The position numbers and the translations under genes are program-made. Below, one piece after another: positions 1 through 29,175 of a stretch of DNA of 47,565 bases. The stretch spans positions 1-47,565 of the forward strand of contig FCNA01000007.1 of the NCBI GenBank assembly GCA_900018345.1. The letters run 5' to 3'. The stretch comes from Clostridiales bacterium CHKCI006. GTDB lineage: Bacteria > Bacillota_I > Bacilli_A > Erysipelotrichales > Coprobacillaceae. The number at the start of each line of letters is the position of its first letter. Within the stretch, counting starts at the first letter, position 1. Below the pieces are notes generated by a model, which was not told the origin of the DNA, did not search any database, and worked only from the letters and a program-made list of their open reading frames with translations.

Positions 1-127
1 CCACAATCACATATTCTGTAGTTTACAGGATATCGTCACCGTAATCAACCACGGATAGAAGGTTGATAGAAAGGAGAAGGTATACTGTAAGTGACCCCCT
101 TAGATGGGACACTTATAATATACCAGG
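1..127 (+). promoter_or_regulatory. Structured leader repeat, copy 1 (pseudoknot plus hairpin)
   Basis: This segment is nearly identical to 20414-20541 and shares its core with 28824-28902. CCGT (39-42) can pair with ACGG (51-54). The loop ATCAACC (44-50) can pair with GGTTGAT (61-67), giving an H-type pseudoknot with a 1-nt first loop and a 6-nt last loop. A second stem pairs GGTATA (79-84) with TATACC (119-124). The ribosome-binding site of the GH1 gene (AGGAAG, 125-130) follows at once. Similarity to copy 2 stops at 127. The left edge lies outside the window. It could be a cis-acting RNA or the end of a mobile element. Confidence 0.6.
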
Positions 128-135
128 AAGAATAA

Positions 136-1605
<1,470 letters not shown>

Positions 1606-18405: not shown

Positions 18406-18411
18406 GACACA

Positions 18412-18647
18412 AAGCATTGACGAGGAGAAGTATGTTTGTTTTTTAGGATAGAGAGTTATCGGCTGGTGGAAGATAATCTGAAAGCAGGCAGAAAGACACC
18501 TAAGAGCTGCTTTTCTGAACGAAGTAGGAAAAGCCGGTTTGCGCCGTTAACGAATGAGTGATGAGATGCTCTAGGCATCTTGTAAGATGGGTGGTACCGC
18601 GGATTCAACAGTTATTCGTCCCTATGTGGGTGATAACTGTTTTTTTG
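18412..18647 (+). promoter_or_regulatory. T-box riboswitch with GAAC specifier
   Basis: The 14-nt T-box TGGGTGGTACCGCG lies at 18588-18601. Stem I is closed by CGGCT (about 18456) and AGCCG (about 18532). The specifier region reads CTGAACGAAGTAGG: GAA (18517-18519, Glu) and AAC (18518-18520, Asn) overlap by a one-base shift. The terminator pairs AACAGTTAT (18607-18615) with ATAACTGTT (18633-18641) before a T-run. Uncharged tRNA should stabilise the antiterminator and switch on the synthetase gene. AAC fits a gene that charges tRNA-Asn with Asp. Confidence 0.93.
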
Positions 18648-18667
18648 TTGATGAGGAGGTACATCGT

Positions 18668-19981
18668 ATGAAAACCATTGCTTTTAAAGATTTAGACCAT
18701 TATTTAGGACAGACGATCCGCATCGATGGATTTGTGTCTCGCATTCGTGACTTGAAATATGTGCAGTTTATGATTGTGCGAGATATAAGCGGAGAAGTTC
18801 AGGTCACGCTTGAGAAAAATGAAGAAAACCAAAAGTGGAATGAACTCGTGTCTCATTTGACCTGTGAAAGTACCGTGAAGATTGAAGGACTGCTGGCTTA
18901 TAATGAAAAAGTGAAATTACGTCACATGGAATTGCTTCCCACAAGCATCGAAGTGACCAGTTACAGTGAAGAAGAACTGCCATTACAATATCAGGATGCG
19001 CATTCGGCTTTACTGGATACGCGTTTAAATTATCGCTTTTTAGATCTGCGGCGTCAGGCGAATCAGCTGATGTTTCAGGTTCAGACAAGCCTGGTGCAGG
19101 GCATGCGGGATTTTGTTTTACAACAAGGCTTTATAGAGATCCATACACCAAAGATGATCGGTGCTGCCAGTGAGTCTGGTTCAGAGGTGTTCAAACTTCA
19201 ATACTTTGATCGGGAAGCCTATCTGGCCCAAAGTCCTCAGTTTTATAAACAGATGGCCATTGCCGCTGGCTTCGAAAAAGTGTTTGAAATTGCTCCGGCT
19301 TTCCGTGCAGAAAACTCCAATTCCTATCGGCATAGTACAGAATTTACTTCTTTTGATATCGAGTTTAGCTATATTGATTCCTATGAAGAAGTGATGGACT
19401 TTGAAGAAGATCTGTTGATCGCAGGCTTGCGTCGTGTCAAAGAACAATATGGCAAGCCAATCAAGGAAGTATTTGGGGTTGAGGTCACTGTGCCGACCAA
19501 ACCGTTCCCACGTATCAAATTGGCCGATCTTTATCAGGCGCTGAAGGAAAAATATGGATTTGAAATGAATTATGAAGATGTCGGTGACATGAACGCACAG
19601 TCTGAAAAATTGGCTAGTCAGTATGCCATGGAGACTTATCATCATCCTTTCCTTTTTGTCACAGATTATCATGCCAGCAAGCGTGCCTTTTATCACCTGC
19701 GCAAACATGGTGTCCCACAGGGATATGATTTGATCTGGAAGGGCTGTGAGATCACAACAGGCGCCCAGCGTGAACATCGCTATGCGCAATTGTGCCAACA
19801 AGCCTCTGAAAAGGGCTTGGGAGAAGATGTCAAATTTTATCTGGAGTTCTTTAAATACGGCTGTCCGCCCCATGGTGGATTTGCTTTAGGCATCGATCGT
19901 CTGACCATGCTTCTTTTGGAGACAGGGTCGTTAAAAGAGACGATGTTCTTATTCAGAGGCCCTGACCGCATTGAGCCTTAA
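18668..19981 (+). CDS. aspS2: Archaeal-type aspartyl-tRNA synthetase (probably non-discriminating)
   Basis: A 437-residue class IIb synthetase, the short archaeal form without the large bacterial insertion. An N-terminal OB-fold binds the anticodon (GFVSRIRDLKYVQFMIVRD). Motif 2 is FRAENSNSYRHSTEF and motif 3 is GGFALGIDRLTMLL. AspS2 enzymes attach Asp to tRNA-Asn (and often tRNA-Asp); GatCAB then amidates Asp-tRNA-Asn to Asn-tRNA-Asn. The T-box with an AAC/GAA specifier supports this. The ATG at 18668 lies 7 nt after AGGAGG. GatCAB is not in the window. The tRNA selectivity is inferred from context, not shown. Confidence 0.92.
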   Translation: MKTIAFKDLDHYLGQTIRIDGFVSRIRDLKYVQFMIVRDISGEVQVTLEKNEENQKWNELVSHLTCESTVKIEGLLAYNEKVKLRHMELLPTSIEVTSYSEEELPLQYQDAHSALLDTRLNYRFLDLRRQANQLMFQVQTSLVQGMRDFVLQQGFIEIHTPKMIGAASESGSEVFKLQYFDREAYLAQSPQFYKQMAIAAGFEKVFEIAPAFRAENSNSYRHSTEFTSFDIEFSYIDSYEEVMDFEEDLLIAGLRRVKEQYGKPIKEVFGVEVTVPTKPFPRIKLADLYQALKEKYGFEMNYEDVGDMNAQSEKLASQYAMETYHHPFLFVTDYHASKRAFYHLRKHGVPQGYDLIWKGCEITTGAQREHRYAQLCQQASEKGLGEDVKFYLEFFKYGCPPHGGFALGIDRLTMLLLETGSLKETMFLFRGPDRIEP

Positions 19982-20197: not shown

Positions 20198-20404
20198 ATG
20201 CACAAGAAGATGAGAGAGATAGCAGAATTAAAAGCAAGGAGAAACACGACCTTTCAAAATAAGATACATGTGATGTGCAACCAACAGCCTTATTCAACAA
20301 AACCTGGTGCAAAATACGAATTCAAGACCCATCTAACTAATCACTGTTTGAGAATAAGGAGTGGTGAGTTCCTCCTTGAAGTAGTCAAAGCCACAGTGGG
20401 ATAA
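20198..20404 (+). CDS. Unrecognised 68-residue basic protein
   Basis: ATG at 20198 lies 10 nt after AAAGGAGG. The product is rich in Lys and Arg at its N-terminus (MHKKMREIAELKARRN) with no known motif and no membrane segment. It sits between IS21-like ends and a copy of the structured leader repeat, so it may be an element passenger or a fragment. A nested hairpin covers its translation start. I do not recognise a family. Confidence 0.4.
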   Translation: MHKKMREIAELKARRNTTFQNKIHVMCNQQPYSTKPGAKYEFKTHLTNHCLRIRSGEFLLEVVKATVG

Positions 20405-20413
20405 AATACAAAT

Positions 20414-20541
20414 CCACAATCACATATTCTGTAGTTTACAGGATATCGTATCGTCACCGTAATCAACCACGGGTAGAAGGTTGATAGAAAGAAGGTATAC
20501 TGTGAGTGACCCCTTAGATGGGACACTTATAATATATCAGG
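20414..20541 (+). promoter_or_regulatory. Structured leader repeat, copy 2
   Basis: About 95% identical to 1-127, with a small ATCGT duplication near 20446-20455. The pseudoknot stems are intact: CCGT (20457-20460) with ACGG (20469-20472), and ATCAACC (20462-20468) with GGTTGAT (20479-20485). It runs directly into a truncated istA reading frame without that gene's own start, so this copy has no proper gene to control. Confidence 0.6.
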
Positions 20542-20769
20542 GCTGAGCAATAGAAGTGTTGTAGAGAAAACTGGATATGCACGAAACACGGTCAATAAGA
20601 TCGTCAAGCAGATTAATGAATCTAGATTGACTGATGACAAAGTCAGAAATTTGAGTGACCAAATGTTAAGCGAGCACTTTAATGACCATCTTAATGTCCA
20701 TCAATTCAAGGATATCCTGAAACGAAAAGCAGGCGAATCCATAGAAGTGGGTTGGGCTGGTCAGCGCCC
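20542..20769 (+). pseudogene. IS21 istA N-terminal fragment
   Basis: The plus strand reads GLSNRSVVEKTGYARNTVNK and continues in frame to about residue 75 (RKAGESIEVGWAGQRP). This matches the helix-turn-helix and start of the catalytic region of IS21-family IstA transposases. The first dozen residues and everything after about 20769 are missing; the frame then runs into unrelated antisense DNA. It is a dead transposase. Confidence 0.7.
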
Positions 20770-20779
20770 ACATTGGAGC

Positions 20780-21325
20780 GATCCAGATACCGTAGCGACT
20801 GATCAGCTGACGGATATCAGCTTACCCTCCTATGGCAGACTCCCCGATCTTCTCAAGAGCTGCCCGCAGTTGGTCAGAATTTGCCCTCCCATTGTTGATA
20901 TCAGAAATCAGCCTGTTGCCAAGCACATCCGCATAATCATCAACTTCCGTTCCGGTAGCAGCAAATATTTTTTCCAGTTTTGCCGTATTCTGTGTGAAAA
21001 TGCTTCCTGTCCCGTCTGTAGCTCGGGTAGGTCGGCCTTGTATTCATTTAGCTTCCCACGGGGTTCCTCAATCTTCCGCTGAAACGCCTGGTATTTATCC
21101 GCCCCGATATCTCCATGGGAAAAGGCAGCAGTCACCTGTTTCTTGGCAGCTTCCAGAGTTGACAGCTTTTCTTCTGTCTGGCTGACTGCCTAGGCCAGCA
21201 GTACTGTATGAGAAGGATCGAGTTTCAGGAGGTTGTTCACATCATTTAAGGCAGACTGTGTTTTCATGACGGATGAAATGACGTTCTTAAGTACTGTGGT
21301 ATCGCCACAAATCTCCACTGTAATA
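20780..21325 (-). pseudogene. Phage tail tape-measure protein relic
   Basis: Minus-strand translation gives a series typical of the N-terminus of siphophage tape-measure proteins: ISSVMKTQSALNDVNNLLKL, DPSHTVLLA, a stop (TAG), then AVSQTEEKLSTLEAAKKQVT, SHGDIGADKYQAFQRKIEE and LNEYKADLPELQTGQ. A frameshift leads to ATGTEVDDYADVLGNRLI. Stops and truncation at both ends show it is dead. It implies a lost or partly transferred prophage and is richer in GC than the host genes around it. Confidence 0.7.
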
Positions 21326-21434: not shown

Positions 21435-21740
21435 ATGGCAAATACATCCGCAGTTTATGCCCGCATTGATACGGAGTTAAAAGAAAACGCTGAAAGAATC
21501 CTTTCTCAGCTTGGGATTTCCCCGTCCAGCGCAATACAGATGCTTTACAGTCAGATTGTACTGAAAAAGGGAATGCCCTTTGAACTTCGCCTGCCCTCCA
21601 CAAAACCCACCGCGGTCGGAGGCATGACCCGTGAGCAGCTGGACGCAGAGCTTATGAAAGGCATGGAGTCCATGAAATCTGGCGTAACCTATACGGCAGA
21701 TGAGGTGGATGCCGAATTAAAACGGGAATTCGGTATATGA
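21435..21740 (+). CDS. RelB/DinJ-family antitoxin
   Basis: A 101-residue antitoxin. The N-terminal ribbon-helix-helix (SAVYARIDTELKENAERILSQLGISPSSAIQMLYSQIV) dimerises on its own promoter; the C-terminal tail (TADEVDAELKREFGI) should wrap the toxin. The ATG at 21435 has AAAGGAG 10 nt upstream. It overlaps the toxin start by four bases (ATGA), so the pair is translationally coupled. A repeat at the -35 box is a candidate operator. Base composition suggests recent arrival with the flanking mobile debris. Confidence 0.92.
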   Translation: MANTSAVYARIDTELKENAERILSQLGISPSSAIQMLYSQIVLKKGMPFELRLPSTKPTAVGGMTREQLDAELMKGMESMKSGVTYTADEVDAELKREFGI

Positions 21741-22069
21741 ACGGTACCTATTTCGTTATCTACTCCCCGGATGCCAAAGATGATCTGAGAGAGATTTATT
21801 CTTACATCGCCTATGATCTGCAGGCACCAAAGACCGCAGAGGGCCAGGTAAACCGTATCCGGAAAGAAATCAGGTCGCTTGATTTTATGCCATCCCGGCA
21901 TGCTGTCGTGGATTGGGAACCGTGGAAAAGCATGGGGATGCATCGGATGCCGGTAGATCATTTTGTCGTCTATTATGCCGTAAATGACAGCAGCCGCACG
22001 GTAACTGTGATCCGAATTTTCTACGGTGGCAGGGATGTTGAGGGCATCATTCAGGCAGAACGTGAATAA
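21737..22069 (+). CDS. RelE/ParE-superfamily toxin
   Basis: A 110-residue toxin. VIYSPDAKDDLREIYSYIAYDL and the ending VTVIRIFYGGRDVEGII are typical of the RelE/ParE fold. RelE members cut mRNA on the ribosome and ParE members poison gyrase; sequence alone does not decide, though the FYGGRD ending is common in ParE-like plasmid-stability toxins. It is full length and its partner is intact, so the module may be active. A terminator follows directly. Confidence 0.9.
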   Translation: MNGTYFVIYSPDAKDDLREIYSYIAYDLQAPKTAEGQVNRIRKEIRSLDFMPSRHAVVDWEPWKSMGMHRMPVDHFVVYYAVNDSSRTVTVIRIFYGGRDVEGIIQAERE

Positions 22070-28823: not shown

Positions 28824-28902
28824 TTTTACAGTGAGGTTAAGCCGTCATCAATCACGGATCAAAAAGGTTGATAGAAAGGTATAAGGGCATTGATAAGATA
28901 CC
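28824..28902 (+). promoter_or_regulatory. Structured leader repeat, copy 3 (diverged)
   Basis: The outside has diverged from copies 1 and 2, but the core is kept: CCGT (28842-28845) pairs with ACGG (28854-28857), and ATCAATC (28847-28853) pairs with GGTTGAT (28866-28872), with one C-to-T change tolerated as a G-U pair. ATAGAAAGG follows, then GGTAT (28878-28882) pairs with ATACC (28898-28902). The start codon of the HMA protein lies 12 nt further on. Conservation of pairing rather than of flanks points to a functional RNA. Confidence 0.6.
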
Positions 28903-28914
28903 CTAGGTGTGCAT

Positions 28915-29175
28915 ATGGAAAAAGTGACGTTGACAATTGATGGGATGATGTGTGGAATGTGCGAAAGTCATATATGTGATGCGATTCGTAAGAACTTTGA
29001 AGTAAAAAAAGTAACCGCGTCACATAAAAAAAAGGAAGCCGTTGTGTTAACTGACTTGCCTTTACCTAAAGCGCAGATGAAAAAAGTATTGGGTGCGCTA
29101 GGCTATACCCTTGTCGATATGCGTAGCGAGCCTTATGCTCCTAAGACGGGGTTGAAGAGACTATTTGGAAAATGA
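28915..29175 (+). CDS. Heavy-metal-associated (CopZ-like) domain protein
   Basis: An 86-residue cytoplasmic protein with a ferredoxin-like HMA domain: VTLTIDGMMCGMCESH carries the CxxC metal-binding pair, and the family's second half ends LGALGYTLVDM. Such proteins chaperone copper(I) or a similar ion to a P-type ATPase. A 15-residue basic tail (TGLKRLFGK) is extra. The ATG at 28915 follows AGGTG by 5 nt and the last stem of the structured leader by 12 nt. No ATPase gene is adjacent. Confidence 0.88.
   Translation: MEKVTLTIDGMMCGMCESHICDAIRKNFEVKKVTASHKKKEAVVLTDLPLPKAQMKKVLGALGYTLVDMRSEPYAPKTGLKRLFGK

Follow-up and report, generated by a model that had tools for sequence, protein, structure and literature searches.

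The full-length copies of a small pseudoknot-containing motif in a contig of Clostridiales bacterium CHKCI006 (GCA_900018345.1, contig FCNA01000007.1, positions 1 to 47,565; the whole 47,565-nucleotide stretch analysed here is called the window) are identified by sequence comparison as the left end (LE) of an IS110-family mobile element. We consider it likely that the motif is the outward-facing terminal module of this LE, that a bridge RNA guides the element into Shine-Dalgarno (SD) sequences, and that the module acts as a leader in the messenger RNA (mRNA) of the interrupted gene. An initial annotation of the window had offered two alternatives, a cis-acting leader RNA or the end of a mobile element. 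Since most hits of the motif lie at element ends and its stems covary strongly, both hold together: the motif is mobile-element end and conserved leader RNA at once.

Results

Extent and boundaries of the element

With a covariance model built on four copies and a permissive E value of 0.5, the motif was detected in 28 of 43 family genomes (hits used later had E values of about 1e-3 or better), and a second model found it in 45 of 316 genomes of the order (E < 0.001). This search, proposed in the initial annotation, returned the covarying stems and the proximity to start codons that would speak for a leader, but also the outcome named as evidence against one, since most hits sit at the ends of transposase-bearing elements. 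The hosts extend across the Erysipelotrichales and include Traorella massiliensis (more than 10 copies), Thomasclavelia, Holdemanella, Sharpea, Merdibacter and Ructibacterium. No relative was found in the viral contigs searched, and the plasmids searched gave one 28-nucleotide (nt) match only, judged to be due to chance.

The full repeat is about 1.67 kb long, with the motif module forming the outer ~95 nt of the LE. Genome G003 has three copies that do not differ between -1570 and about +95, counted from the motif, and genome G015 is similar. The G003 element encodes a DEDD transposase of the IS110 family (PF01548, E 4.7e-36; PF02371, E 2.5e-20). The element begins with CTGGTATATT... at the LE tip and finishes with ...TATAGTTAG at the right end (RE), with the core CT/AG. 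A duplicated region of G015 provides an empty site, in which ATCTAAAGAAAGGAGAGTCTACTC is unbroken, whereas the filled site reads ...AAAGAAAG joined to CTAACTATATAAAAATCAAG on one side and AATATACCAG joined to GAGAGTCTACTC on the other. Comparison of the two places the core AG within AAAGAAAG^GAG (CT on the recombinase strand), implying insertion at a dinucleotide core with no target-site duplication beyond it.

In the source genome (3.33 Mb, 164 contigs), the 127-nt sequence of the first window copy occurs in six identical copies, each lying a few hundred bases or less from a contig end. Four of the six continue upstream into the beginning of an IS110-family transposase encoded on the opposite strand (MLTIGIDIGKNSHFF...), which places base 1 of the window within a repeated element at which the assembly broke. 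The transposase N-terminus at the window's own element type, cut by the contig end, scored 25.2 bits, below the cut-off of 29. The overlap of 127 nt presumably equals the assembly word length. Other genomic copies are copy 2 of the window (91%) and divergent copies standing alone on contigs C89 (copy 3), C69, C103 and C156. C69 is a small A+T-rich contig on which a solo leader (L102) precedes a polysaccharide epimerase gene; as contamination of the assembly is 3.6%, this contig may come from another organism.

Insertion within Shine-Dalgarno sequences

In 49 of 67 distinct insertions, a frame of 40 or more codons starts with an ATG 4-16 nt past the core, compared with 11.7% in control windows of the same sequences. 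The joined flanks of the 31 elements with both flanks readable resemble ...aataaagg[AG]gaattatATG, and their longest match to AAAGGAGG is 4-7 nt. Taken together, the excess of ATG frames and the SD-like joined flanks show by comparison that the element inserts within SD sequences, with its LE towards the start codon. The LE terminus ...ATACC[AG] and the host GAGG together restore AGGAGG at the junction CCAG^GAGG.

The aligned elements share a region between the LE and the transposase start, which is the predicted bridge RNA. On the recombinase strand, its stems contain G-U rather than A-C cells in ratios of 16:0, 15:2 and 38:1, and RNAalifold by itself leans the same way. The region contains two putative guides. 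Guide 1 corresponds to the left flank plus core, with the same letters in guide and flank in L107 (TTTGGAG), L141 (AAGGTAT) and G052 (AGGCAG); overall agreement is 175 of 203 letters (permuted mean 102, maximum 134). Guide 2 corresponds to the reverse complement of the right flank, with 141 of 216 letters in agreement (permuted mean 101, maximum 123). Neither value was reached in 10,000 permutations, although the guide register had been chosen by eye beforehand; this raises the absolute agreement to some extent, but equally for every element. The two matches suggest that the element is guided into SD sequences by its own bridge RNA. An AAGGAG...CTCCTT hairpin of the C100 element had been considered as the guide, and was replaced by the two-guide reading, which passed the permutation test.

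The layout of the predicted guide RNA matches that of published bridge RNAs and seekRNAs (PMC11208160, PMC11187229). By consensus only, the RE-LE junction forms a sigma-70-like promoter, TTGATT-17-TATATT. In most elements a second one, TTGATT-17-TAnnAT, immediately precedes the target-binding loop. Across the elements compared, the guides drift while the kind of target, an SD, stays constant.

More distant relatives were also observed. Streptococcus gallolyticus BI02 contains many IS110 elements (L153-L181; transposase ~34% identical) at GGAG...ATG SDs (GGAGGATACCAAATG, GGAGACTAAAATG, GGAGGAAAATGTCATG); these have a short LE and a bridge-RNA region, and the pseudoknot module is absent. A sister clade (43-52% identity) has members with an apparent AT core (L139, L140, L141, L145, L150; 43-47% identity), again at SD-like targets, and their pseudoknot is made up of entirely different letters.

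Structure of the leader module

On the host-gene strand, the LE consists, in order, of a pseudoknot with stems P1 and P2, an SD-like AGAAAGGA(G), a hairpin and the AG core. Among 28 diverse sequences, 97% of the cells pair and 10 of the 11 pairs show double changes, which occupy 28 cells compared with 6.6 in shuffles; slid controls gave 1-3 such pairs. A sister sub-clade retains the pseudoknot topology and AGAAAGGA with wholly different letters. The H-type pseudoknot RNA proposed in the initial annotation is thus well founded, as both stems covary and G-U pairs are preferred on the gene strand. The window copies have no match in Rfam, including preQ1-I and other riboswitch models, consistent with the earlier suggestion of an undescribed RNA.

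The internal SD-like sequence (SD1, AGAAAGG) immediately follows P2 in 59 of 68 leaders, and the loop spanning P2 is 59% A. No consistent start codon is found behind SD1, and some ATG, GTG or TTG occurs 4-12 nt downstream in 27 of the 59. A short leader peptide started by SD1 was rejected because these start codons differ in position and frame. In the 5' arm of the hairpin (window 79-124 and relatives), SD1 is often followed by a start-stop-like pair such as TTGTAA or CTGTAA; this results from the arm's complementarity to the LE tip and is perhaps coincidental. An IS3-like reading of the hairpin (GTGACCCC...GGGACAC) was abandoned when the neighbouring protein proved to be IS110.

G-U cells outnumber A-C cells on the gene strand by 15 to 2 in leaders with at most one non-Watson-Crick pair (one-sided P 0.001), and by 22 to 6 when two are allowed. 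The model fit scored G-U and A-C alike, and since a single A-C in place of G-U costs only a few bits of ~45-70, ascertainment by the model explains little of this excess. Together with the S. gallolyticus elements, which have a bridge-RNA region and no module, the excess argues that the pseudoknot is probably an mRNA-side structure on the host-gene strand rather than a core part of the bridge RNA. Its action on the gene strand is supported but not settled by these comparisons.

Leaders without an element

We found 21 distinct solo leaders, with no trace of an element upstream within the stretch examined. The pseudoknot is kept in 13 of them with at most one odd pair, and several have a shortened hairpin before the start codon. 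The genes behind them are unrelated, encoding for example an HMA/CopZ-like protein, an Fe/Mn superoxide dismutase and a polysaccharide epimerase, and the leader is present in none of 19 orthologues of the gene behind copy 3 and in none of 8 of the dismutase. From these comparisons, the solos look like left-behind element ends used as 5' leaders, not an inherited regulon. The unrelated genes, the separate insertions and the leaderless orthologues likewise speak against the preQ1-like, ligand-sensing control of a gene set suggested in the initial annotation. A leader for antitermination of the LoaP/NusG type was considered for the solo that precedes a polysaccharide gene, and was dismissed since the other downstream genes are unrelated.

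Copies in the window

The window contains the motif CCGTNATCAAYCACGG at three places (39-54, 20457-20472 and 28842-28857), and still at only three when two mismatches are permitted, against 0.16 expected and with none of 100 shuffles reaching three. In every copy it is followed by 6-8 nt, GGTTGAT and AGAAAG. The second hairpin has a folding energy of -19.4 kcal/mol in copy 1 (79-124) and -17.0 kcal/mol in copy 2, and is weaker in copy 3. The initial annotation was accurate in these respects, as it was for the stems of copy 3, which keep all 11 pairs with one G-U. It had also placed the end of this hairpin, in copies 1 and 3, at 0-2 nt from the ribosome-binding site; this spacing arises because the 3' arm is the tip of the mobile element and the ribosome-binding site is the remainder of the target. 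Its description of a leader ahead of genes applies to most copies, which stand just before start codons, but not to copy 2, which lies inside an interrupted frame.

The transposase of the copy 1 element is on the minus strand further left, beyond the contig end. The left flank of copy 2, AAGCAAGGAG, includes CAAGGAG, which is the guide of the C100 element, and at the junction on its right the frame has no start codon; copy 2 is therefore an insertion in the SD-like stretch of an interrupted frame, not before an intact gene. The frame fragment (20541-20840) has no Pfam match. Copy 3 is an old solo LE end before the CopZ-like gene. The coordinates are collected in Table 1. Elsewhere in the window, a T-box leader (18408-18626) precedes a class II aminoacyl-tRNA synthetase gene (18587-19981), and a ParE-like toxin gene (21737-22069) lies close to copy 2.

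Table 1. Features of the three motif copies and adjoining genes in the window
Feature	Position	Strand	Basis
Copy 1, outer part of the IS110-family element LE, host-gene strand shown	1-124	+	6 identical copies; boundary from G015 empty site
Copy 1, P1 stem CCGT/ACGG (39-42 with 51-54) and P2 5' strand (44-50)	39-54	+	Pairing, covariation
Copy 1, P2 3' strand GGTTGAT	61-67	+	Pairing, covariation
Copy 1, SD1, internal Shine-Dalgarno-like AGAAAGGAG, without consistent start codon downstream	68-76	+	
Copy 1, hairpin GGTATA...TATACC; 3' arm is the LE tip	79-124	+	Folding energy; element boundary
Copy 1, core dinucleotide AG (recombinase strand CT), insertion before GH1 gene	125-126	+	Analogy with G015 empty site, flank table
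GH1 gene, leftover target ribosome-binding site and spacer, GAAGAATAAACA before ATG at 139	127-138	+	
GH1 family enzyme, gene behind copy 1	139-1605	+	PF00232, E 7.5e-133
Copy 2, transposase-less element remnant: bridge-RNA region (minus strand), then leader module	~20241-20538	+	91% identity over last 127 nt; upstream similarity to transposase start
Copy 2, pseudoknot: P1 20457-20460/20469-20472, P2 20462-20468/20479-20485	20457-20485	+	
Interrupted frame right of copy 2 (LSNRSVVEKTGYARNTVNKIV...)	20541-20840	+	Own start codon absent at junction
Copy 3, solo pseudoknot, 11/11 pairs formed, one G-U (in 7-bp stem)	28842-28872	+	
Copy 3, SD1 (AGAAAGG), shortened hairpin, CTAGGTG, spacer to start codon	28873-28914	+	
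CopZ-like (HMA) protein gene behind copy 3	28915-29175	+	PF00403, E 3.6e-08

Discussion

Proposed mechanism and alternative explanations

We propose that insertion cuts the SD and that the junction CCAG^GAGG rebuilds it, so that the ribosome site would be kept. The host gene would thereby gain a new 5' leader composed of the pseudoknot, the internal SD AGAAAGGAG, the hairpin, the rebuilt SD and AUG, and its mRNA would begin in or cross the LE. As no conserved outward promoter was found in the LE, transcription would come from read-through or chance promoters. The pseudoknot with its A-rich loop, together with an SD lacking a proper start codon, might stabilise the message or load ribosomes in the manner of STAB-SD sequences. 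The hairpin would separate the pseudoknot and SD1 from the rebuilt SD and may shield the rebuilt start site from antisense element RNA upstream. Such a leader would lower the cost of insertion, and ends that survive loss of the remaining element, as in copy 3, could serve unrelated genes as 5' leaders. To the wider proposition, that this is an IS110 clade with drifting guides that is always addressed to SDs and carries an outward mRNA leader replacing the cut-off 5' untranslated region (UTR), keeping the host gene expressed and leaving ends behind as new host leaders, we assign an even chance.

Several points weigh against the proposed mechanism. Only one true empty site was found, and about a quarter of the distinct insertions have no clear ATG frame. 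The strand test comprises few G-U and A-C cells, and the ratio is about 5 to 1 in the subset found by protein similarity only. The search for a conserved outward promoter in the LE gave no consistent match. The solos were found with the motif model, so that decayed ones are under-counted and their intactness, which partly reflects selection by the search, is by itself no proof of natural selection. Finally, we infer the presence and action of the leader in host-gene mRNA from sequence comparison, and its putative stabilising role by analogy.

A different reading would make the pseudoknot the 5' structural domain of the bridge RNA transcribed from the RE-LE junction promoter, and its location before start codons a by-product of SD targeting. 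The bridge RNA is encoded in the same non-coding end as the motif, a transcript from the junction promoter of the circle form would include the motif, published bridge RNAs have a 5' stem-loop (PMC11208160), and the sister clade keeps the topology with other letters. We nevertheless judge this reading rather unlikely, because the G-U excess of the pseudoknot is on the gene strand, opposite to that of the bridge-RNA stems, and the second promoter lies between the pseudoknot and the target-binding loop. Moreover, the S. gallolyticus relatives do without the module, and solos lacking a bridge RNA retain the pseudoknot. It is improbable that the conserved CTCCTTTCT on the recombinase strand of the LE (e.g. 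in L107-L134) pairs with the transposase SD GAAAGGA in long transcripts and represses translation with the assistance of the pseudoknot. In 20 elements RNAalifold does pair TCCTTTC with the GAAAGGA ahead of the transposase start (134 of 140 cells Watson-Crick), but both partners are near-invariant and hence show no covariation, elements with altered letters (L108, L118) have no matching change, and neither the gene-strand bias nor the solos would be explained.

Two further readings appear very improbable. A host-native ligand-binding riboswitch or protein-binding leader captured by the element would account for a compact, covarying pseudoknot beside an SD and for solos before genes; it is at odds with the lack of an Rfam match, the unrelated downstream genes, the leaderless orthologues of two solo-leader genes and the fact that most copies adjoin an element. 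Equally slight is the chance that the inverted repeats act as DNA at the element's end, in recombinase binding or extrusion, with incidental RNA-like pairing: the motif does lie within ~95 nt of the recombining end, but a covarying pseudoknot, an A-rich loop and strand-biased G-U pairs are unexpected for a DNA site, and relatives recombine without the motif.

Few conserved motifs of a genome are as numerous as Shine-Dalgarno sites, so that an element addressed to them has a very large choice of targets, every one immediately ahead of a gene. The proposed mechanism links bridge-RNA-guided recombination to translation. If it is true, the replacement leader would limit the harm done to the host and also supply 5' UTRs ready for use, which is what the solos appear to be. 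For IS110 biology, the elements also supply guide-target pairs in a natural series whose purpose is conserved and whose letters drift, as well as a small family of covarying RNAs that Rfam does not contain.

Comparison with known systems

Targeting of SDs or translation starts by an IS110 element is not new. IS900 of Mycobacterium avium subsp. paratuberculosis, also of the IS110 family, was reported in 1997 (Doran) to target translation-initiation signals, and its target motif CATGNNNNNNTCTCCTT comprises a start codon and an anti-SD, both according to PMC8141618. IS900, which is described with an antisense frame (hed), resembles the present element in its translation-start targeting, with the target motif read in the same orientation. 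Compared with IS900 as described, the present element inserts within the SD itself, has identified guides, and has an LE with a covarying pseudoknot leader. PMC8141618 also mentions an IS900 end, ACCTTTCTTGAAGGG, from position six, the reverse complement of which contains AAGAAAGGT, an outward SD-like stretch; we note this as a lead only. Guide-level evidence for SD targeting, or a structured outward leader, was not found in the searchable papers, which included no preprints and only a minor part of the subscription literature. The outward leader module appears to be undescribed.

As for the leader itself, its compact H-type pseudoknot, A-rich loop and adjoining SD recall preQ1-I riboswitches, from which it differs in having no Rfam match, no coherence among downstream genes and a sporadic, mobile distribution. 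The STAB-SD of cry3A in Bacillus thuringiensis is an SD-like 5' UTR sequence without a consistent start codon (PMC4113751). SD1 of the LE likewise has no consistent start codon behind it; unlike STAB-SD, it is joined to a pseudoknot and hairpin and borne by a mobile element, and a stabilising effect is suggested by analogy.

With IS110/IS621 and the seekRNA elements such as ISEc21, the present element shares a DEDD recombinase, a CT core and, by prediction, an RE-LE junction promoter and a guide RNA encoded upstream of the gene in the non-coding end, where donor guides accompany two target guides (PMC11208160, PMC11187229). In contrast to IS110/IS621, its LE is longer, with an outward leader module on the other strand and a second promoter before the target loop, and the present elements keep SD targets while their guide letters drift.
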